Source of the DNA: Anaerohalosphaera lusitana
GTDB taxonomy: Bacteria; Planctomycetota; Phycisphaerae; Sedimentisphaerales; Anaerohalosphaeraceae
Reading direction: 5' to 3'
NCBI RefSeq assembly: GCF_002007645.1
Contig: NZ_CP019791.1
Span: 1,240,001 to 1,304,000, forward strand
DNA length: 64,000 nt
The notes beneath the pieces were generated by a model. It was not told the origin of the DNA, ran no database searches, and saw only the letters and a program-made list of their open reading frames with translations. Below, piece after piece: positions 2,855-13,952 of the stretch. The position numbers and the translations under genes were made by a program. Each line of letters starts with the position of its first letter. Position 1 is the first letter of the stretch.

Positions 2855-3105
2855 ACAACATCATCGCCCGAAAAATTGATTTAACAGACCAGTTCCAGCA
2901 GCTGTCCGAAAGCAAGACAGTCGGAACCGTGACGGTTACCGCCCTGAGTGGCAACTCATCTGAGGTAATCCTGCTTGGTGATACAGGTGATCAGGTGCCG
3001 CTGGTTCCGGGTGAGTGGCACACCTTTATCCGCGTCGACCTGGCTCGGATAAACGTCAAGGGTTCAGCTGGTGACGGAGTCACTGTTGTTGGAGGTACGT
3101 GGTAA
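2851..3105 (+). CDS. Small phage structural protein, unknown
   Basis: 84 aa starting in an ATGA overlap with the previous gene. It is beta-rich with a Gly/Val pattern (GTVTVTALSGNSSEVILLGDTG, here given in part; ends KGSAGDGVTVVGGTW), as in small virion decoration or adaptor proteins. I recognise no family. It sits between a tail-completion candidate and a collar-domain protein and is probably a minor virion component. Confidence 0.45.
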   Translation: MNNIIARKIDLTDQFQQLSESKTVGTVTVTALSGNSSEVILLGDTGDQVPLVPGEWHTFIRVDLARINVKGSAGDGVTVVGGTW

Positions 3106-3458
3106 TGCCGCATCGAGGTGATGTATTTGCACCAGGCATGATAATCATGTGGTCTGGGCTTTTAAGCGATGTGCCAAGGGGATGGAGCGTCTGTGACGGT
3201 AGCAACGGCACTCCCGATCTTAGAAACCGTTTCGTCAGGGGCGCAAGTTCAGTCGGCGGAATCGGCGGCTCACAATCTCACGTTCACTGCCATGGCGGGT
3301 GCACCGCATTTGAAGGTGGGTGTCCGGTTTATGTAGAATTTGGCTGCACTTATCCTGTGCCGTTTTATGGACATTCACATGGTGCCAGCCCCATTACCGA
3401 GACGTTCGAGGACAACCTGCCGCCTTACTATGATCTGATATTCATAAGGAAAGACTGA
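3105..3458 (+). CDS. Phage tail collar-domain (tail fibre tip-like) protein
   Basis: 117 aa. Residues ~10-45 contain a tail-collar signature: a PRGWSVCDGSNGTPDLRNRF stretch followed by GA/GG and a His-rich loop. In phage fibres this domain forms part of the receptor-binding tip. Here it is a stand-alone short protein with many His and Cys (HVHCHGGC, YGHSHG), so metal binding is plausible. The start at 3105 is preferred over GTG 3099 because GGAGGT at 3091-3096 gives 8-base spacing; it overlaps the previous TAA. The stop overlaps the next ATG. Confidence 0.7.
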   Translation: MPHRGDVFAPGMIIMWSGLLSDVPRGWSVCDGSNGTPDLRNRFVRGASSVGGIGGSQSHVHCHGGCTAFEGGCPVYVEFGCTYPVPFYGHSHGASPITETFEDNLPPYYDLIFIRKD

Positions 3459-4033
3459 TGGATAATATTACGTTTGCCATTCCTACATACAACAACGCCG
3501 AAACCATAATGACGGTTTTGAAGCGGTGCCTGCAGCAGGATGTAAAACCCAAGATCCTGATAATGGATAACGGCAGTACCGATGGAACTGTCGAGATGCT
3601 TCGGGCCGCCATCAATAACGGCATCTTTGGTCCGGTTGACATAAAGCTCGAATCGGTCCAGCGGATGCTTGGCGGCAAGTCCAAGAACATTCCATATGTC
3701 CGCTATAAGCTCTGCCAGGCGGTCGATACCGAATATGTATTCCTGCTCGACGCCGATGTGTTGATACCGCAGCATGCCATCCTTGGCCTTCGCGAGATGC
3801 TCGAAGAAGATGGAGATCTGGTCGGTGCCGGGATCCGGGTGGATCCGATCGTCGAGCATATCCAGTTCGGGGCCATACTGCTTAAATCAGAAATTGCCAG
3901 GCAGATCAAGTGGAACAACGGCGAGGGCAAATGCGAGTGCCTGTGGGCGTTGCAGTCCATAAACCAGCTCGATGACAATTACAAAGTTAAAAGACACCCG
4001 GTCTACCAGGCCATGCATCTGAAAGGATTTTAA
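3458..4033 (+). CDS. Glycosyltransferase family 2 protein (prophage-encoded)
   Basis: 191 aa GT-A fold protein. It opens with a nucleotide-sugar binding start (ITFAIPTYNNAETI), then IMDNGSTDGT and the DxD-type metal site LLDADV. It is a short catalytic domain with no membrane helix, so it acts in the cytoplasm on a soluble acceptor. It overlaps the collar protein stop by one base and is embedded in head-tail genes, which points to sugar addition to a virion protein rather than cell envelope work. Related genes lie at 11.0-13.9 kb. Substrate is unknown. Confidence 0.8.
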   Translation: MDNITFAIPTYNNAETIMTVLKRCLQQDVKPKILIMDNGSTDGTVEMLRAAINNGIFGPVDIKLESVQRMLGGKSKNIPYVRYKLCQAVDTEYVFLLDADVLIPQHAILGLREMLEEDGDLVGAGIRVDPIVEHIQFGAILLKSEIARQIKWNNGEGKCECLWALQSINQLDDNYKVKRHPVYQAMHLKGF

Positions 4034-6522: not shown

Positions 6523-8511
6523 ATGGCCAACACAAAAGGAATCAGGGCGGGTAAGGCGTATGTCGAGCTGTTTGCTGATAACAGCAAACTCGTTCAAGGC
6601 CTGCGTCTTGCCCAGCGAAAGATTATGGCTTTCGGCAATACCATCCGGAACATGGGTCTAAAGCTCGCCGGGATCGGTGCAGCCCTGGCCGCTCCTTTTG
6701 TTATGGCATCAAAGTCGTTCAGCTCTATGGGTGATCAGGTCGCCAAGATGGCCAAACGCACAGGCCTGTCGGTTGAAACTCTAAGCGAACTTAAATTTGT
6801 GGCAAGCCAGACCGGCACGGAATTCGTCTCTCTTGAGAATGCGTTTCGTCGGATGCAGCGGAGTGTATATGATGCGGGGAGGGGGCTTAGCACCTCTGTC
6901 GATGCCCTGAGTGATCTTAACCTGCAGTTCCAGGATCTCGACGGGCTCTCACCCGAAGATCAGTTCAAGCTATTAGGCGATAGGATCAGCCAGATCACCG
7001 ATCCAACCCGGCAGGCGGCAATCGCAATGACCCTCTTTGGCAGGACCGGCACCAATCTTCTGCCAATGTTTGCGAATGGAGCCAAGGGGATCGAAGAGCT
7101 GCAGAAACAGGCACGCCAGCTTGGCTTGACTATGACCAGTGAAGATGCAGCGGCCGCAGAAGTATTTACTGACACCATGGACAAGCTCAACAAGGTCGTG
7201 AAGATGGCGGTCTTCCATATCGGTTCGGCTCTTGCCGGTGCGTTCAACGACAGCGTCGATCACATCGTGCACCTGGTCAAATCCATCTCCGACTGGATCA
7301 AGCAGAACAAGGGCCTGGTCGTTACCTTCGCAAAGATAATCGGCATGCTGACTTTGACCGGTGTTTCGCTGGCAGTCCTTGGGATGCTGATCTCGGCTAC
7401 CGGTGCGGCTTTTGGGGTCCTGGCCACCATTGCATCTGCAGTCTCAGCCGCGTTCGGTGTTGTTGCCGCCGCTATAAGTGCAATCATATCTCCCATTGGA
7501 CTTGCCATAACGGCTGTGGTTGCCCTGGGAGGTTATCTGCTGTTTACAAGCCAAACCGGTGCAAAAGCGCTGGCTTGGCTGGGCGATCGGTTCGGAGTGC
7601 TTGCCAAAACCGCAACCCAGACCTTCAGGGGAATAGGCGATGCACTTGCAGCTGGCGATGTCGTCCTTGCTGCAAGGATACTCTGGCTCTCGCTGAAGCT
7701 TACATGGCGGCAGGGGGTCAATGCACTCAAGAAAGTATGGTACAACCTGCAGACCTGGATGACAGAGACTTTTTACACGATCGTCGAAGCTGCCCAGCTG
7801 GCCTGGCATGGGCTCGAGGTCGCATGGATCGAGACGACTTCATTCTTTTCGCGAGCGTGGAATAAGTTTGTGTCATTCTTTGCAAAAAGCTGGGAGAGGA
7901 TCAAGGCTGGAGCTAAAAAGGCCTGGAACTGGATCAAGAGCCTGTTTGATGACACGCTGGATCTCGAGACCGAAAACAAGCTGGTTGACGAAGAACGCCA
8001 GAAGGCAATCGCCAAGATAGAGGATGATCAGCAAACGAAACTCGCCCAGCTCCAAGCCGAGCGTCAGAAAAAACGAGATGCAGCAGCTGCAAAGAATGCC
8101 GCCATTTTGGCGGGGATAGAGGATGAAGCTGCCGCAAAGCTGACCGAGATGGATGCGGACCATGCCGCTAAGATCGCGGCCAATGAGGCAGAGCTGGCAA
8201 GGGCAAAAAGCAAGTGGAAAGAAGCCATCAAGTCCGCCCGCGATAAACGCAATGGGCTGGATGATAAATCGCCCGAGCTTGATGCCACAGAAAGTGCCAA
8301 GGACCTAAAATCCGCTCTTGCGGGTGTATCCGACGTTATCGGCAGCCAGATGGCCTCTGTCAGTATAACCGGGACGTTCAGCGCCTTTGCAGCAGGTGGA
8401 CTTGGCAGCGGCAATGCCATGGACAGGACGGCCCAGGCGACCGAAGAAACTGCTCGTAATACCAAGCAGATTTTAAATATCAGCAAGTTCGCCGGAGGCC
8501 GGTTCAGTTGA
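6523..8511 (+). CDS. Phage tail tape measure protein
   Basis: 662 aa. The N-terminus has the usual helical start (SKLVQGLRLAQRKIMAFGNTIR) and a TMP-family core with MAKRTGLSVETLSELKFVASQ. Hydrophobic helices lie around residues 268-345, and a long coiled coil rich in K/E/A around 480-600 (KIEDDQQTKLAQLQAERQKK). Tape measure proteins set tail length and pass into the host membrane during DNA entry. At 662 aa, the tail would be fairly short for a siphovirus. The C-terminus has the Gly/Ser-rich GTFSAFAAGGLGSG motif common in these proteins. Confidence 0.9.
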   Translation: MANTKGIRAGKAYVELFADNSKLVQGLRLAQRKIMAFGNTIRNMGLKLAGIGAALAAPFVMASKSFSSMGDQVAKMAKRTGLSVETLSELKFVASQTGTEFVSLENAFRRMQRSVYDAGRGLSTSVDALSDLNLQFQDLDGLSPEDQFKLLGDRISQITDPTRQAAIAMTLFGRTGTNLLPMFANGAKGIEELQKQARQLGLTMTSEDAAAAEVFTDTMDKLNKVVKMAVFHIGSALAGAFNDSVDHIVHLVKSISDWIKQNKGLVVTFAKIIGMLTLTGVSLAVLGMLISATGAAFGVLATIASAVSAAFGVVAAAISAIISPIGLAITAVVALGGYLLFTSQTGAKALAWLGDRFGVLAKTATQTFRGIGDALAAGDVVLAARILWLSLKLTWRQGVNALKKVWYNLQTWMTETFYTIVEAAQLAWHGLEVAWIETTSFFSRAWNKFVSFFAKSWERIKAGAKKAWNWIKSLFDDTLDLETENKLVDEERQKAIAKIEDDQQTKLAQLQAERQKKRDAAAAKNAAILAGIEDEAAAKLTEMDADHAAKIAANEAELARAKSKWKEAIKSARDKRNGLDDKSPELDATESAKDLKSALAGVSDVIGSQMASVSITGTFSAFAAGGLGSGNAMDRTAQATEETARNTKQILNISKFAGGRFS

Positions 8512-9293
8512 GTATAACCGTAGCTGAAAAATTCGACAGTCCGCAGATCACCAAGGGCCAGAATCCATCTGCTACCTGCAGCTTTATTGTCCAGGGCACG
8601 GACGATGAGAGTGAAGCTCTTTCAGCTCTGCTGGCCCAAACGCCCGATGTGTACCAGGACATGCCGCGAAACAGCCACGGCATAGACCACCTGGCCCAGA
8701 ATCTGTGGGAAGGAGCAGTGCACTACGGCAGCGGGGCGTCTGATGTAAACAGCTTCGCCACCAGCTTTGATACCACTGGCGGCACACAGCACATCACCCA
8801 GTCCCTGTCGACCATCAGTGCCTATGCAAAATCAGGAAGCACGGCTCCTTTGTATGGCGGTGCGATCGGCGTCACCAAGAGCGATGTCACCGGTGTCGAT
8901 ATTACGGTCCCTGTCTTTAACTTCTCGGAGCGGCACTTTATCTTAGACGCTAACGCGAATGCACTTACATATCGCAACCTGACTGGTTGTGTCAATAACC
9001 TGCCGTTTAGAGGCTTTGCGGTTGGTGAAGTTCTGTTTTTAGGTGCAACCGGCAGCATCGGTCAGGATGGGTTATGGGAGGTCAATTTCAAGTTCGCCGC
9101 CAGCCAGAACAAGTCGAACATCACAGTCGGCAGCATTACAGGAATCGTAAAAGGCGGGTGGGACTACATGTGGGTTCGCTATGAGGACACGGAGGACATG
9201 TCGGCCGGTGCGATCGTCAAACGGCCGACTGCGGTCTACGTCGAGAGGGTCTATCCACTCGCTGATTTTAGCCTGCTGGGGATCGGTGCATAA
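8508..9293 (+). CDS. Phage distal tail/minor tail protein, unknown
   Basis: 261 aa with a TTG start overlapping the tape measure stop; GGAGG at 8494-8498 gives 9-base spacing and supports this start. The protein is beta-rich without recognisable catalytic motifs (GVDITVPVFNFSERHFIL, GFAVGEVLFLGATGSIG, WEVNFKFAASQNK). Its position right after the tape measure is where distal tail and baseplate proteins are encoded. The long KGGWDYMWVRYEDTED segment near the end may contact neighbouring subunits. No named family is recognised. Confidence 0.5.
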   Translation: MSITVAEKFDSPQITKGQNPSATCSFIVQGTDDESEALSALLAQTPDVYQDMPRNSHGIDHLAQNLWEGAVHYGSGASDVNSFATSFDTTGGTQHITQSLSTISAYAKSGSTAPLYGGAIGVTKSDVTGVDITVPVFNFSERHFILDANANALTYRNLTGCVNNLPFRGFAVGEVLFLGATGSIGQDGLWEVNFKFAASQNKSNITVGSITGIVKGGWDYMWVRYEDTEDMSAGAIVKRPTAVYVERVYPLADFSLLGIGA

Positions 9294-11017
9294 TGAGAAA
9301 AGTCAAATCGGGCGAGCCACTGAATATCCCCGCCCAGACATACAACACCTTCATCGATGCTGCCCAGGACTACAAGAGTCGCCAGCTCAACACCGAAGGT
9401 ACAGCCAGACTTACCCCTGAAAATCAGTTCATCCTGGTTAAAAACGAGACCAATCAGACCTGCCCGCGTTTCAGCGTTGTCGGGATAAATGGACCGGTAA
9501 TCGAGCCGGGAGCAGATATCGATGGCTTTGTAAACTCGATCGCTTTAAAGGGCGAGCTGCCATCCGAACAATCAAAAGGACGATTCGCAATCCTGCTCGA
9601 ACCTGCCGCACCGGGCCAGATCATCCGCGCTGCAATTAGCGGTATCTGCTGTGTTCGGATCGAGGTCTATGACGAGTCGCACAGCTTTGCCCAGCCGATA
9701 GCAGGGGACGCCAGCCGTCTTCAAAGCAGCGAAAACGGCTCGGCTACCATACTGTGGAAAGAGGCCGGTACGGGCCTTAAGTGGTCGCTGGTCCGTTTAG
9801 ACCGGGCTGATACCGGTATTCGGATGGGTGTCATTGTTGACAGTCTTGGCGGTGACAGTATGTTTGTCGGCCAGCTGTATGGCCCGGCCGGTGAAGTCGT
9901 CCAGGAAAAGCTGGATGTAATCTGCAACGTCACCGACATACCACATGTCGAAGTGGGCGCAGAATTCGCGGCAGTTAATCGCAGCGGCAAGTGGTGGTGC
10001 CTGGCAATCTATGGTGTCTACTACAGCAGTGATTATCTAAGCAGCGAAGTGTTGCTCAGTGAAATCCTCAGCAGCGAGGCCATCATCAGTGATGAATCGG
10101 ATATTGGTGGATTATCTTCAGGTGAAGGTTCGTTCAGTGAAGGTTCAATTAGCGAAGGACTGCTGTCCAGTATGTTGGGATCCAGCGAAGGAGACTTTTC
10201 GGAGTTTTTCAGCAGCGAGGGTGTCCTCTCTAGCGATCTTTCGAGTGATGATGTTTCGAGCGATGCAGCCTCAAGTGAGCAAGGACTTTCATCGGATTTC
10301 TTTTCCAGTGATGCCGATTCAAGTGAGCATCCAAGCAGTGATGATCAATCATCTGAATTGGCCTCGAGTGAGGCTTTATCAAGTGAGGGGCTAAGCAGTG
10401 ATGAGCAGCCCTCCAGTGACGAATTAACCCAAAGCAGCGGATTCCCGTCCAGTGACGGGCTTTCCAGTGACTTTATAAGTTCTGACTGGGGTAGCTCTGA
10501 TTTTGCAATGAGTTCTGGCGTCTCAAGTGAAGAGGCTCTTTCCAGCGATTTTCCAAGCTCTGATCTACCAAGCTCTGACGCGTTATCCAGCGACCTGTGG
10601 CCCAGTTCGGATGTGATCCCAAGCTCGGATGAAATCGGTGAATGCAGCCTGGTTCCAGGACCTTATCCACCGCATGTACTGCTTACCTGCTATGGCAGGA
10701 AGTACGTTGATGGTGAGGATGTTCCCGATTACAGCCAAACACGCAGCTTTATTTTGACCCGCGATGCACCATGCCACTGGCAATATTCAGATGGCAGTTA
10801 CACCTTTGAGTTTTGGATGAATTATCTTTCCGGCCAGGAAAGTTGTGAATTTCGAAATCACACGGATACTGCTCCATTTTGGGCTGATAACGGTTACCTG
10901 CCGCCAAGTGCAGTAACTGCAGTGTCAAACAGCTATGGCAAATACGGTGAGAGCATAGGTCAGTGGCACTATTACGAATTCGACATGGGCTTTGCCAGTG
11001 TGGACCCAATATGGTGA
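9293..11017 (+). CDS. Serine-rich SS(D/E)-repeat tail protein
   Basis: 574 aa. Residues 1-240 are a folded, beta-rich phage domain (GEPLNIPAQTYNTFIDAA near the start, then AAPGQIIRAAISGICCVRIE). Residues ~243-447 are almost only Ser, Asp, Glu and a few hydrophobics in about thirty SSD or SSE units spaced roughly 4-9 residues. Residues 450-574 are an aromatic/Cys C-terminal domain (LTCYGRKYVDGEDVPDY, FEFWMNYLSGQESCEF). The order head domain, stalk, tip fits a tail fibre or adhesin-like virion protein. Synonymous Ser codons vary widely, so the repeat is selected at protein level. Four glycosyltransferase-like genes follow, overlapping one after another. Confidence 0.7.
   Translation: MRKVKSGEPLNIPAQTYNTFIDAAQDYKSRQLNTEGTARLTPENQFILVKNETNQTCPRFSVVGINGPVIEPGADIDGFVNSIALKGELPSEQSKGRFAILLEPAAPGQIIRAAISGICCVRIEVYDESHSFAQPIAGDASRLQSSENGSATILWKEAGTGLKWSLVRLDRADTGIRMGVIVDSLGGDSMFVGQLYGPAGEVVQEKLDVICNVTDIPHVEVGAEFAAVNRSGKWWCLAIYGVYYSSDYLSSEVLLSEILSSEAIISDESDIGGLSSGEGSFSEGSISEGLLSSMLGSSEGDFSEFFSSEGVLSSDLSSDDVSSDAASSEQGLSSDFFSSDADSSEHPSSDDQSSELASSEALSSEGLSSDEQPSSDELTQSSGFPSSDGLSSDFISSDWGSSDFAMSSGVSSEEALSSDFPSSDLPSSDALSSDLWPSSDVIPSSDEIGECSLVPGPYPPHVLLTCYGRKYVDGEDVPDYSQTRSFILTRDAPCHWQYSDGSYTFEFWMNYLSGQESCEFRNHTDTAPFWADNGYLPPSAVTAVSNSYGKYGESIGQWHYYEFDMGFASVDPIW
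10021..10635 (+). repeat. SS(D/E) coding repeat tract
   Basis: About 205 codons of imperfect short repeats such as LSSD, PSSD and ASSE, coded with AGC, AGT, TCC, TCA, TCG and TCT serines mixed. The tract starts abruptly after CLAIYGVYY and stops at SSDEIGEC. It is acidic, likely extended and unstructured, and rich in potential O-glycosylation or phosphorylation sites. Confidence 0.85.
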
Positions 11018-12015
11018 TCAAATGCAAAAACTGGAAACCGTCACCAAAACCATTACATGGCATCTGCAAGGCAGGCAAGCTCGGCGGTGAGCCTGTCGTC
11101 AGTGCGTGCATCGATGTATGTGGCCAATGCCAAAACAGCTCGGAGGATTTTAGAAACTATCTAAGCAGCCGATTCGGCACAGGTAAAATGGCAGCAGATA
11201 ACAAAAAGGTAATAATCGAATCACAGCCCCAGCGTCACAGGGCATGGCATAAGGATGTGTTTTATCGAGGCGATGGAACTACTGTCGACCTGGTCGACCT
11301 TTTCCATGGCCAGAGCGTCTTTTTGATCTGTAATGGTCCAAGCATAAAAGACATCGATCTCGAAAAGCTTACCTCCACACCCGGTGTTATGACCATGAGC
11401 CTCAACAATGGCGGCCACAAAATACGAACGAACCTTTGGACTGGCCAGGATCCGCCATATCGCTTCATGCAAAGCATCTGGGAGGACCCGTCGATCATGA
11501 AGTTCACCCTGTACGATTACCGCAAGCGTCCTGTCTGGGATCGCAAGAAGGGCGGCTACAGCGACCTGAAACTATGGCAGTGTCCCAATACCTTCTTCCA
11601 CAAACGGCACTCAGATTTCGATGCAAAGAAATGGCTCGATGAGGACAAGGTGGTCTGGGGTGAGCCCAAAGACGCTGGCGGCAATCGCTCCGTAATGCTG
11701 GCGGCGTTGCACATACTCTATTTTTTGGGCTTTCGCAACGTGTTCCTGTTGGGTGCTGATTTCCATATGACCAGTGATGACAAGTATTTCTTCGAGGACC
11801 GGGCAGCCGTCAAGCACAACAACAGGCTCTTTAAAAATGTTGCCAAGTATTTAGAACAGCTCAAGCCTTATTTGAATGAGGTGGGCTTTCGGGTATTTAA
11901 CTGCAGCCCGGCGAGTCACCTGAAGGTGTTTGAGCACAAATCAATCCATGATGCTGTTGAGATGTGCCGGGTCAATATTTCTCAATCCACAGAAGGGATG
12001 TACGTCAAACGATGA
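11011..12015 (+). CDS. MptE-like/DUF115-type glycosyltransferase-related protein
   Basis: 334 aa. ATG 11011 overlaps the fibre gene stop (11015-11017), making it translationally coupled. The first ~42 residues carry five Cys (C5, C19, C33, C37, C40) and may bind metal. The main domain starts with SVFLICNGPSIKDIDL, the nucleotide-binding signature of the MptE-like/DUF115 group, several of which modify flagellin or surface glycans. Later come GGNRSVMLAALHILYFLGF and VFLLGADFHM. It is probably a sugar transferase acting with its neighbours; the reaction is not determined. Confidence 0.65.
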   Translation: MVIKCKNWKPSPKPLHGICKAGKLGGEPVVSACIDVCGQCQNSSEDFRNYLSSRFGTGKMAADNKKVIIESQPQRHRAWHKDVFYRGDGTTVDLVDLFHGQSVFLICNGPSIKDIDLEKLTSTPGVMTMSLNNGGHKIRTNLWTGQDPPYRFMQSIWEDPSIMKFTLYDYRKRPVWDRKKGGYSDLKLWQCPNTFFHKRHSDFDAKKWLDEDKVVWGEPKDAGGNRSVMLAALHILYFLGFRNVFLLGADFHMTSDDKYFFEDRAAVKHNNRLFKNVAKYLEQLKPYLNEVGFRVFNCSPASHLKVFEHKSIHDAVEMCRVNISQSTEGMYVKR

Positions 12016-12581
12016 TGATTGTAAGTTTCTATACTGCTGATACGCCATACGAACAGGAAGTTGGCAAGCTGCGAAAATCACTGGAAGCGTTCGACCTGCC
12101 TCACAAAATCTACGAAATACCGAGCAAGGGAAGCTGGCAAAAGAACACGCACCGTAAGCCGCATGTGATCCTGCGTGCCCTTGATGAACTGGACGAGGAC
12201 ATCCTCTATGTGGATGCGGATGCCACATTACATGGTAAACCGCAGATTGATCTTGCAGGCTTCGATTGGGCAGCTCACATAATGGACAAAGCGTACTGGG
12301 GCCAGGACACCTCAAAAAGGACCCATTCACTTATGAGCGGCACACTTTGCTTTGCCAACAATCGCCGATCCAGGATGATCCTTGAGCTGTGGATCCAGCT
12401 GAATCGCCAGTATCCATGGCGGTGGGACCAGAGAAACCTCGAGCTGATCTGGCGGAAAAACCAGGAGCGGTTTTTGAACCTGCCGGTTGAGTACTGCGCA
12501 ATCGATAAAACCATGACCGTTGAAAATGCCATCATCCGCCACCACCAGGCGAGCCGACGTTTGAAAGGCAGGATATGCTGA
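12012..12581 (+). CDS. Glycosyltransferase (GT-A-like, DxD)
   Basis: 189 aa; ATG 12012 overlaps the previous stop. The N-terminal strand MMIVSFYTADTPY, a helix, then DILYVDADATLHGKP with a DxD-type metal site fit a small nucleotide-diphospho-sugar transferase of the GT8/GT77-like kind. SGTLCFANNRRSRMIL and DQRNLE match acceptor-side motifs of such enzymes. No membrane segment. It is one of a run of four, so it probably extends or starts the same glycan. Start and end overlaps suggest equal expression with the neighbours. Confidence 0.65.
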   Translation: MMIVSFYTADTPYEQEVGKLRKSLEAFDLPHKIYEIPSKGSWQKNTHRKPHVILRALDELDEDILYVDADATLHGKPQIDLAGFDWAAHIMDKAYWGQDTSKRTHSLMSGTLCFANNRRSRMILELWIQLNRQYPWRWDQRNLELIWRKNQERFLNLPVEYCAIDKTMTVENAIIRHHQASRRLKGRIC

Positions 12582-13360
12582 CCAGTGTGATTTTGATCTG
12601 CAATAAAGAACGACATCTAAAACGCACGCTTGCCAATCTCCTCGAGACAGCAGCTGGTGAGATTGAAATACTCGTCTACTTTGACGGTCTGCGCCAGCGG
12701 GTGATACCTGACAAACGCATCCGCACCATCTTCCATCCGCAGAACCGAGGCAGGCGGGTGGTCATCAATGAGGCGGTTATCCATGCTCGCGGTGACTATA
12801 TCTTCCACATCGATGGGCACTGCCGGATGCTGACCGACGGCTGGGACCTTAAAATGATCCAGGCTGCCGGTTTGCGATCGACGGCAGTTGCATCGATCCT
12901 GAACCTTCGACCCGACAAGCGGCATCTGATCAGGCACGTCATGCATCACCCAAAGCACCTGGCCAATCACTTCTGGGATGAAAAAACGCCCCAGAATACA
13001 GTGGAAGACATGATGACTCTGACTGGCTGTGCATGGATGCATCACCGCAACCTCTGGCAAAACTTCAATGAGCGTTATGCAGGCTGGGGTTACATGGGCA
13101 TCGAATGGTCGCTCAAGAACTGGCTTTGCGGCAGTGGGCCCAATCCGATTCTGCTGTGTTCTGATATCGTCTGCGAGCACATCGGCCGACGTCATCGAGG
13201 CAATCCAGCCCGGACCGACTGGCTAAAGCACAATTTGTCCCCGGGAGCGACCCTGCGGCACATAAACAAGCTCTACAGAAACAACAAAGCTCCAGATCAG
13301 CAGCGTCCGCTGAGTTGGCTGATTGACAAATTCAAACCGGTTCCGGGCTGGCATGAGTAA
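12575..13360 (+). CDS. Glycosyltransferase family 2 protein
   Basis: 261 aa beginning LTSVILICNKERHLKRTL. The metal site is HIDGHC, and a late TGCAWMHHRNLWQNFNERY followed by GWGYMGIEWSLKNWL resembles the C-terminal lid of polypeptide GalNAc-transferase-like GT2/GT27 enzymes. That similarity is suggestive because such enzymes glycosylate Ser/Thr of proteins. No membrane helix, so it is cytoplasmic. It overlaps its neighbours at both ends. The donor sugar cannot be read from sequence. Confidence 0.75.
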   Translation: MLTSVILICNKERHLKRTLANLLETAAGEIEILVYFDGLRQRVIPDKRIRTIFHPQNRGRRVVINEAVIHARGDYIFHIDGHCRMLTDGWDLKMIQAAGLRSTAVASILNLRPDKRHLIRHVMHHPKHLANHFWDEKTPQNTVEDMMTLTGCAWMHHRNLWQNFNERYAGWGYMGIEWSLKNWLCGSGPNPILLCSDIVCEHIGRRHRGNPARTDWLKHNLSPGATLRHINKLYRNNKAPDQQRPLSWLIDKFKPVPGWHE

Positions 13361-13952
13361 GCGGATCATCTACTACACCGACAATTCGATCGATGATACC
13401 CGGCTTGCAAAGGTCGCCCGCAAATACATCAGACGCTCCAGCATCGCCGTGACCAGCGTCACCCACAAGCCTATGGAGTTCGGCGACAACTTTGTATTTT
13501 ACAATCCACCTTCAGCTCGGTCGATCCTGCGGCAAGTCCTGATGGGGCTCTACACCACCCCCGAAAAGACGGTCTACCTGTGCGAACACGACTGCCTCTA
13601 CCACCGATCGCACTTTGCCCTTGAAACCGATGGCGTAGCGTTCAACACAAACGTCTATCGTCTGACCAATCGAGGGTTTTACAAAAAGTCAGAATGGGTT
13701 CTGTCCCAGCTGATCGCTGATCGTGACTGCTTGATTCAGGCCATAGAACAAAAGCTCGCCCAGCCGGATCCGATCAAGCTGCTAGAACCCGGTCGCGGCG
13801 ATAACTGGCCGGTGGAACTGCTGCAGTCAAAGCTGCCAAACGTGGATGTCAGACACGGCAGGAACTTCTCCCACTGGCGGCCAAGGGGTAAACGTCGGTG
13901 CCGAATTCCGCATTGGGGCCATTATGCCGGACAAGTCGCAAATGTGCTGTAA
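13353..13952 (+). CDS. Putative glycosyltransferase, last of prophage GT cluster
   Basis: 199 aa from ATG 13353, which overlaps the preceding gene's last codons. It opens with RIIYYTDNSIDD and carries VYLCEHDCLYHRSHF, where the EHD could play the part of the DxD site. Similar short proteins appear beside GT2 genes in phage clusters. No membrane helix. The C-terminus is basic (HWRPRGKRRCR). The family is less clear than for the neighbours, and a methyltransferase or capping role cannot be excluded. Confidence 0.5.
   Translation: MSKRIIYYTDNSIDDTRLAKVARKYIRRSSIAVTSVTHKPMEFGDNFVFYNPPSARSILRQVLMGLYTTPEKTVYLCEHDCLYHRSHFALETDGVAFNTNVYRLTNRGFYKKSEWVLSQLIADRDCLIQAIEQKLAQPDPIKLLEPGRGDNWPVELLQSKLPNVDVRHGRNFSHWRPRGKRRCRIPHWGHYAGQVANVL

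Follow-up and report, generated by a model that had tools for sequence, protein, structure and literature searches.

The window analysed here is a 64,000-nucleotide stretch of the Anaerohalosphaera lusitana genome (contig NZ_CP019791.1; complete, 4.25 Mb), and its left end is occupied by a tailed prophage that is also catalogued as an IMG/VR contig. In this prophage, a gene for a 574-residue virion fibre/decoration-like protein with a long Ser-rich tract (9293-11017), a putative glycan acceptor with homologues across Planctomycetota, is followed on the same forward strand by four enzyme-like genes. They are predicted to encode an MptE-like or Maf/CstII-like transferase of 334 residues with a Cys-rich N-terminus, which is the candidate priming O-glycosyltransferase (11011-12015); a 189-residue GT-A-like glycosyltransferase (GT) that resembles PF03407 (12012-12581); a 261-residue GT2 enzyme with a PF00535 match (12575-13360); and a 199-residue GT-associated protein with a CEHDCLYH motif, called ORF4 here (13353-13952). 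A sequence-only reading of this DNA had proposed that these genes are coupled through overlapping start and stop codons, and the overlaps proved real when the codons were checked. The ATG at 9293 sits on the TAA of the preceding gene (8508-9293), the ATG at 11011 lies over the TGA of the tract gene (11015-11017), those at 12012 and 12575 lie over the TGA codons at 12013-12015 and 12579-12581, and the ATG at 13353 stands just ahead of the TAA at 13358-13360. For the MptE-like gene we preferred the ATG at 11011 to the GTG at 10963 given in the list of open reading frames, which is an earlier and less likely start. Translation of the tract gene is thus coupled to that of four genes for soluble, glycosyltransferase-like proteins.

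The Ser-rich tract, delimited by a composition count, covers residues 246-452 (10028-10648) and is followed by a C-terminal region of 122 residues (453-574; 10649-11014) belonging to no known family, for which family profile searches gave no significant match. Among the 207 residues of the tract there are 74 Ser, 46 Asp or Glu, and no Lys or Arg. The dipeptide SS occurs 32 times and SS[DE] 28 times, in good agreement with the roughly thirty SS(D/E) units in about 205 residues that were originally noted. Shuffling of the same residues yielded 5.8 ± 1.9 SS[DE] units, with a maximum of 13 in 2000 shuffles. The units are mostly spaced by 5-6 residues, and the residue preceding SS is mostly Leu, Phe, Ala, Ile or Pro. 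Both AGY (41) and TCN (33) codons are used for Ser in a mixed fashion, which rules out the origin of the tract as a DNA microsatellite and speaks for maintenance of the tract by selection on the protein.

The conserved N-terminal domain (residues ~1-178; 9293-9826) was modelled with AlphaFold2 using 47 sequences. The model consists of a helix (residues 14-34) and a beta domain (residues 44-170), and residues 51-170 have predicted local distance difference test (pLDDT) values of ~94-98. Structural comparison by VIA-align gave Z-scores of 11.4 for the portal-capsid-interface chain of HFTV1, 9.7 for FCWL1, 9.5 for T1, 9.1 for Pa193, 8.7 for the C-terminal fragment of phi29 gp12 and 7.5 for the phi29 head fibre gp8.5. 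In all, 17 phage or virus entries scored between 11.4 and 6.6 over model residues ~40-172, so that the match to the capsid-decoration/head-fibre fold spans the whole domain and lies well above the background of unrelated folds (Z <5). The matches of this domain in BFVD were uncharacterised or fibre-type phage proteins. The likeness to the head-fibre and decoration proteins of phi29, T1/FCWL1 and HFTV1 is in the fold of this domain; sequence identity is ~10%, and the window gene, unlike theirs, adjoins tape-measure and tail genes. The product had originally been called a phage tail protein. Its nature as a virion protein in a phage context held, whereas 'tail' needed qualifying: the fold being that of decoration and head-fibre proteins, we prefer 'virion fibre/decoration protein' to 'tail fibre' as the safer label. 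Judged from the model, the product belongs among the fibre/decoration-type proteins of the virion surface, and a position on the tail is a guess from gene order near the tape measure.

Of 294 planctomycete genomes, 25 encode this domain, and 160 loci with flanking sequence were collected, nearly all of them from Planctomycetota metagenome-assembled genomes (MAGs) and uncultivated viruses. Where a locus bore another taxon label, as a few did, it came from a MAG bin, which may hold foreign contigs. A tblastn search of 50,697 phage records gave no match for the N-terminal domain, the upstream gene, the GT2, the MptE-like protein or ORF4, and scans of viral sequences with the tract protein or the GT2 as single queries returned only the same prophage in IMG/VR and one weak GT2 match. 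The C-terminal parts of the homologues vary freely. Long Ser-rich tracts of the SSS, SSG, SSSE or SSD type occur within the protein itself at 18 of the 160 loci (some of them duplicate pairs, and one being the present prophage). Locus L051 has a TTGTG tract, and one clade has an S/G-rich protein encoded by the neighbouring gene. By eye, every tract gene with flanking sequence is directly followed by GT genes; the GT families vary by lineage.

We then counted GTs at 94 of the 160 loci, non-redundant at 90% identity, with the thresholds for Ser/Thr (S/T) tracts fixed ahead of counting. GTs were present at all 18 loci with an S/T tract in the protein or in the following genes, compared to 10 of the 76 no-tract loci (Fisher p 1.5e-12), and at 17 of 17 when the window locus was left out. 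If only tracts in the protein itself are considered, the numbers are 15/15 versus 13/79 (p 4e-10). The sequence-only reading had named repeat homologues that consistently lack nearby GTs as the finding that would speak against a glycosylated virion fibre; the opposite was observed. As S/T-tract homologues with enough flanking sequence always come with GTs and no-tract homologues rarely do, the glycosylated-fibre reading is supported. An acidic SS[DE] tract could also function unglycosylated, as a phosphorylated, cation-binding or entropic linker to which the GT genes are linked incidentally, and its Asp/Glu-rich composition, kinase-like SS(D/E) sites and lack of Lys and Arg would suit such a role. 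However, the SSG, SSS, SPS and TTG tracts of the relatives lack the acidic pattern and have kept their GTs all the same, which makes this explanation highly improbable.

The GT hidden Markov models (HMMs) used in the count were seeded from tract loci, and a Pfam run with hand identification served as the unseeded control. An HMM built from the window GT2s missed GT2s that Pfam saw at no-tract loci, so home-made HMMs alone are an unfair control. At 17 tract loci, Pfam detected 7 GT2, 7 GT25, 6 GT4, 2 GT32, 3 MptE-like and 6 sulfotransferase matches in 46 genes. In 148 genes downstream of 58 no-tract loci, where detection covers ~3 downstream genes, it detected 6 GT2 and one TOD1/MUCI70. These seven matches all trace to L124, L133, L211 and L225, loci with a Tyr/Gly-rich insert (GYGGYGYGYGYYG). 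When Tyr/Gly loci, a class defined post hoc, were pooled with the tract loci, GTs were present in 23/23 loci versus 5/71. Fibre homologues with such an insert (GYGYGYYG), followed by GT2-type enzymes, were seen at L124, L133, L211, L218, L219 and L225; at L124 and L133 a 2OG-Fe(II) oxygenase-like gene follows, and modification of Tyr is possible at the Tyr/Gly-insert loci. The no-tract control set also contained four Pfam matches to the TubC_N docking domain, which was confirmed in L124.

In a maximum-likelihood phylogeny of the N-terminal domain, the tract label requires 12 changes, at least 5 of them on well-supported branches. The accompanying enzyme sets differ between lineages: GT25 with a fused sulfotransferase, GT4-like with GT2, GT32, Maf-like with a methyltransferase, and GT2 with TOD1. 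Repeated joint gain of a tract and of unrelated GTs, as this pattern would imply, argues most strongly for a functional link. Several of these loci have further features. At L050 (8149-9516), L145 (7968-9203), L134, L138, L140 and L142 the neighbouring S/G-rich protein is split by a Hint (intein-like) domain with SSG tracts on either side, and a methyltransferase gene and the MptE-like gene precede it. In a further set of loci (L039:3752-5178, L039:7034-8356, L201:9057-10385), pyruvyltransferase and GT32-type genes lie upstream of the Ser-rich fibre gene (L039), and a GT25 fused to a sulfotransferase stands directly behind it; the glycan made there is possibly acidic or sulfated.

The phage context of the window locus was confirmed by PHROG matches for a major head protein/protease (24-1478), a collar-type fibre protein (3099-3458) and the tape measure (6523-8511). 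One gene (8508-9293, forward strand), for a conserved 261-residue protein of the virion module, separates the tape measure from the tract gene, and it has homologues at tract and no-tract loci. A homologue was found at most 1.5 kb upstream of the tract gene at 31/31 tract loci and at most 1.5 kb upstream of the fibre-domain gene at 87/89 no-tract loci, and the tape measure was present at 26/26 and 72/75 loci, respectively. The presence of both genes at both classes argues that, by gene content, tract and no-tract loci are one phage module. This bears on the possibility that the GTs act on some other phage target, for example a different fibre, modified DNA bases or the major head protein. DNA is indeed also modified by phage GTs. 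As far as available accounts of Freeman et al. 2023 go (via PMC12619734, PMC11256854), GTs of mycobacteriophages (Che8, Rita and others) glycosylate virion proteins, with the glycans located at the C-termini of capsid and tail-tube subunits. However, the same tail module lacks GTs when it lacks the tract, which is unexpected for a capsid or DNA target, and we regard such a target as quite unlikely.

A second data set was obtained by collecting viral relatives of ORF4 (13353-13952) without regard to tracts. In L246 and L248, which are phages of other kinds, the ORF4 relative is fused to a GT2. The window GT2 matches the first half of the L246 fusion over nearly its full length (25%, 3e-21; 3e-20 for L248), and ORF4 matches residues 324-536 in its C-terminal half (32%, 2e-27). 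Given their fusion in other phages, the last two window genes are two parts of one enzyme system and probably act together. When the L248 fusion was used as the query, 24 viral loci falling into 20 clusters were retrieved. An S/T-rich protein was encoded at 18/24 of these loci (15/20 clusters) versus 0/91 in the same scan of the no-tract controls. These proteins mostly start within ~1 kb after the GT frame, and typically have SPSxSPSxS repeats in tracts of ~80 to >600 residues; several of the loci without an S/T protein are short or extend little beyond the GT. Since GT2/ORF4 relatives lie near S/T-rich proteins in unrelated phages, the glycosylated-fibre reading is further supported. Some of the proteins with SPSxSPSxS repeats are very long, up to 1852 residues (L246:7084-12639, L248:8401-12315, L258, L260, L264, L271), and they are adjoined in these uncultivated phages by cassettes of GT2, methyltransferase-like and, in L248, sulfotransferase-like genes.

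The enzyme genes had been read as one MptE-like and three GT genes, and they differ in how well this stands. The GT2 clearly passes the Pfam cut-off for PF00535 (46.3 versus 23.3 bits, 5.9e-12). Its suggested resemblance to polypeptide GalNAc-transferases amounts to a weak 42-residue match (GALNT9, E 0.013) and does not extend to GT27 membership; Pfam finds no ricin-type lectin domain in the protein, which at 261 residues is too short for one. A DAD motif is present in the product of 12012-12581, which matches PF03407 weakly (0.006) and is 33% identical to a protein of an uncultured phage (5e-19). ORF4 has no Pfam match, and its link to GTs is through the C-terminal half of the GT2 fusions.

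The MptE-like protein falls below the Pfam cut-off for PF01973 (19.5 versus 34.6 bits, E 9e-4). It matches PHROG 4603, an alpha-2,3-sialyltransferase (2.6e-6), and weakly the sialyltransferase 9c08 among PDB profiles (0.075), and its L145 relative weakly matches CST-I (0.016). CstII was the top Foldseek match (E 0.16) of a low-confidence model (pLDDT 48.8). Homologues, ~40% identical, occur at the same place in related prophages. These independent weak signals point the same way, and the protein may be better read as a Maf/CstII-like transferase of the sialyltransferase fold than as MptE-like. In Maf, the PF01973 domain is structurally similar to CstII, and the enzyme attaches nonulosonic acids or Kdo (3-deoxy-D-manno-octulosonic acid) directly to Ser/Thr of flagellin, thus acting as an O-glycosyltransferase (PMC11339370). 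In common with Maf are the weak family match, the CstII-like motif and fold matches and the expected Ser acceptor. In contrast to Maf, the window protein is phage-borne and below the family cut-off, has no flagellin genes beside it, and carries its Cys-rich N-terminus in place of the N-terminal domain of Maf. The first gene after the fibre gene is often Cys-rich N-terminally at no-tract loci as well (CCCCKEG..C..C; L085, L094, L096, L102, L103, L109, L111 and others), as if in the window an enzyme had been joined onto that position.

None of the four enzymes has a likely transmembrane segment (maximum 19-residue hydropathy ≤1.73 in all), as expected for modification of a virion that is assembled in the cytosol. 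In the host genome, we observed a strong match of the CMP (cytidine monophosphate)-sugar synthetase type (PF02348, 1.2e-55) and a weak NeuB-type match, which make a CMP-activated sugar donor in the host plausible.

Phage GTs often alter host surface glycans, and some modify DNA. The four genes could accordingly be lysogenic-conversion morons that change host surface glycans for receptor masking or superinfection exclusion, the Ser tract being an unrelated flexible linker. Besides being a common role of phage GTs, this would be in line with the variable gene content at this spot of the operon and with the weak GtrB-like PHROG match of an earlier GT2 (3458-4033). Against it, the GTs follow S/T (and Tyr) tracts locus by locus, unrelated phages included; the four genes encode neither transmembrane segments nor a flippase-type protein; and, being coupled to a late virion gene, they are more likely to be expressed late than in the lysogen. 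We therefore consider this explanation unlikely. Assignment to a gtr O-antigen conversion cluster was rejected, as the four proteins gave no matches to the GtrA/GtrB/GtrC families and have no likely transmembrane segments. The earlier GT2 is itself short and soluble (PF00535, 6.8e-15), and its gene is overlapped by that of the collar-type fibre protein (3099-3458), which has no S/T tract; these may be a second fibre/GT pair.

The sequence-only reading had drawn a parallel to Gram-positive serine-rich repeat protein (SRRP) adhesins, whose loci combine GtfA/GtfB, an accessory Sec system and 2-10 GTs in a cluster (PMC6973325). The parallel stands in so far as both have a Ser-rich acceptor beside its own GTs, and would share intracellular glycosylation by priming and variable extension. 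Membership does not stand. SecA2/SecY2/Asp are absent among the genes of the window locus, which are phage virion genes and GTs; the tract protein has neither a signal peptide nor an LPXTG motif on inspection; and no Pfam or NCBIfam match for a GtfA/GtfB (GT4-type) pair was obtained in the four genes, Pfam giving GT2, PF03407 and PF01973 only. The locus was therefore rejected as an SRRP-adhesin/accessory Sec locus: its product is a virion protein rather than an exported adhesin, and the GT families differ. With the mycobacteriophages it shares a tailed phage whose GTs are encoded with virion genes; the GTs of the F1 phage Maravista are placed close to the genome's 3' end (PMC11256854). As far as the mycobacteriophage accounts go, the window locus differs in that the long low-complexity tract of a separate fibre/decoration protein is the likely acceptor, and in that the GTs are coupled to the acceptor gene. 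By analogy, the window locus would be an analogue, not a member, of SRRP-adhesin loci and would work like mycobacteriophage virion glycosylation.

Taken together, these data led us to propose that the locus is a self-contained virion-glycosylation unit, with a probability of about 0.76. Glycosylation of the tract itself is inferred from the genes, as are the identity of the priming enzyme and of the sugar, where the protein sits on the particle, and what benefit it brings. The N-terminal decoration/head-fibre-type domain would dock on the particle. The acceptor would be the Ser tract, which is flexible, acidic and mucin-like and is followed by the C-terminal domain. The soluble cytosolic enzymes from the four coupled genes would modify the tract before or during assembly with host nucleotide sugars. 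Ser may be primed by the Maf/CstII-like enzyme or by one of the GT-A enzymes, and the glycan may then be extended or branched by the PF03407-like enzyme and by the GT2 with its partner ORF4. Maf of A. caviae favours Ser/Thr with apolar flanks such as Leu/Ile (PMC11339370), and the apolar residues that mostly precede SS in the tract are a parallel that counts for this proposal. The modified tract would be displayed on the particle, where it might, speculatively, serve as a glycan shield against proteases or defences, or in adhesion.

Several points weigh against this proposal. The no-tract control loci were drawn from the same phage group. GTs occur without a tract at L097 and L182, a gene at L108 is GT-like by eye with no Pfam match, and L161 and L174 have GTs without a clear tract on truncated contigs. 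An independent-pairs test on the tree gave 2.8 pairs in the same direction and 0 in the opposite one, too few well-supported pairs for significance, and tracts and GTs may be co-located because the end of the tail operon is a hot spot for insertions of both. Finally, each single test of the MptE-like assignment gave a weak result and the model of this protein is of low quality, and the donors and acceptors of GTs are not readable from sequence.

To our knowledge, very few phages are known to carry covalently bound glycans on their particles. Our literature search, with subscription papers mostly outside it, found no description of S/T-rich phage virion proteins paired with GTs. The pairing of tracts and GTs in many unrelated phages points to a wider occurrence of sugar-coated phage proteins than has been recognised. 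We give an even chance to a broader view in which tailed phages have repeatedly built a 'mucin module', that is, a low-complexity S/T or Tyr/Gly fibre tract with an exchangeable cassette of glycan enzymes (GTs, sulfo-, methyl- and pyruvyltransferases and a 2OG oxygenase), and in which virion glycocalyces would be common, convergent and modular beyond the few known cases. If the tract-GT rule, by which an S/T- or Tyr-rich tract of a virion protein goes with neighbouring soluble GTs, holds across many uncultivated phages, virion glycosylation would become predictable and testable. Such loci, if the proposal is true, would provide self-contained sets of acceptors and cytosolic O-glycosyltransferases for glycoengineering, and would offer a new view of fibre-mediated adsorption and particle protection in the phages of Planctomycetota.

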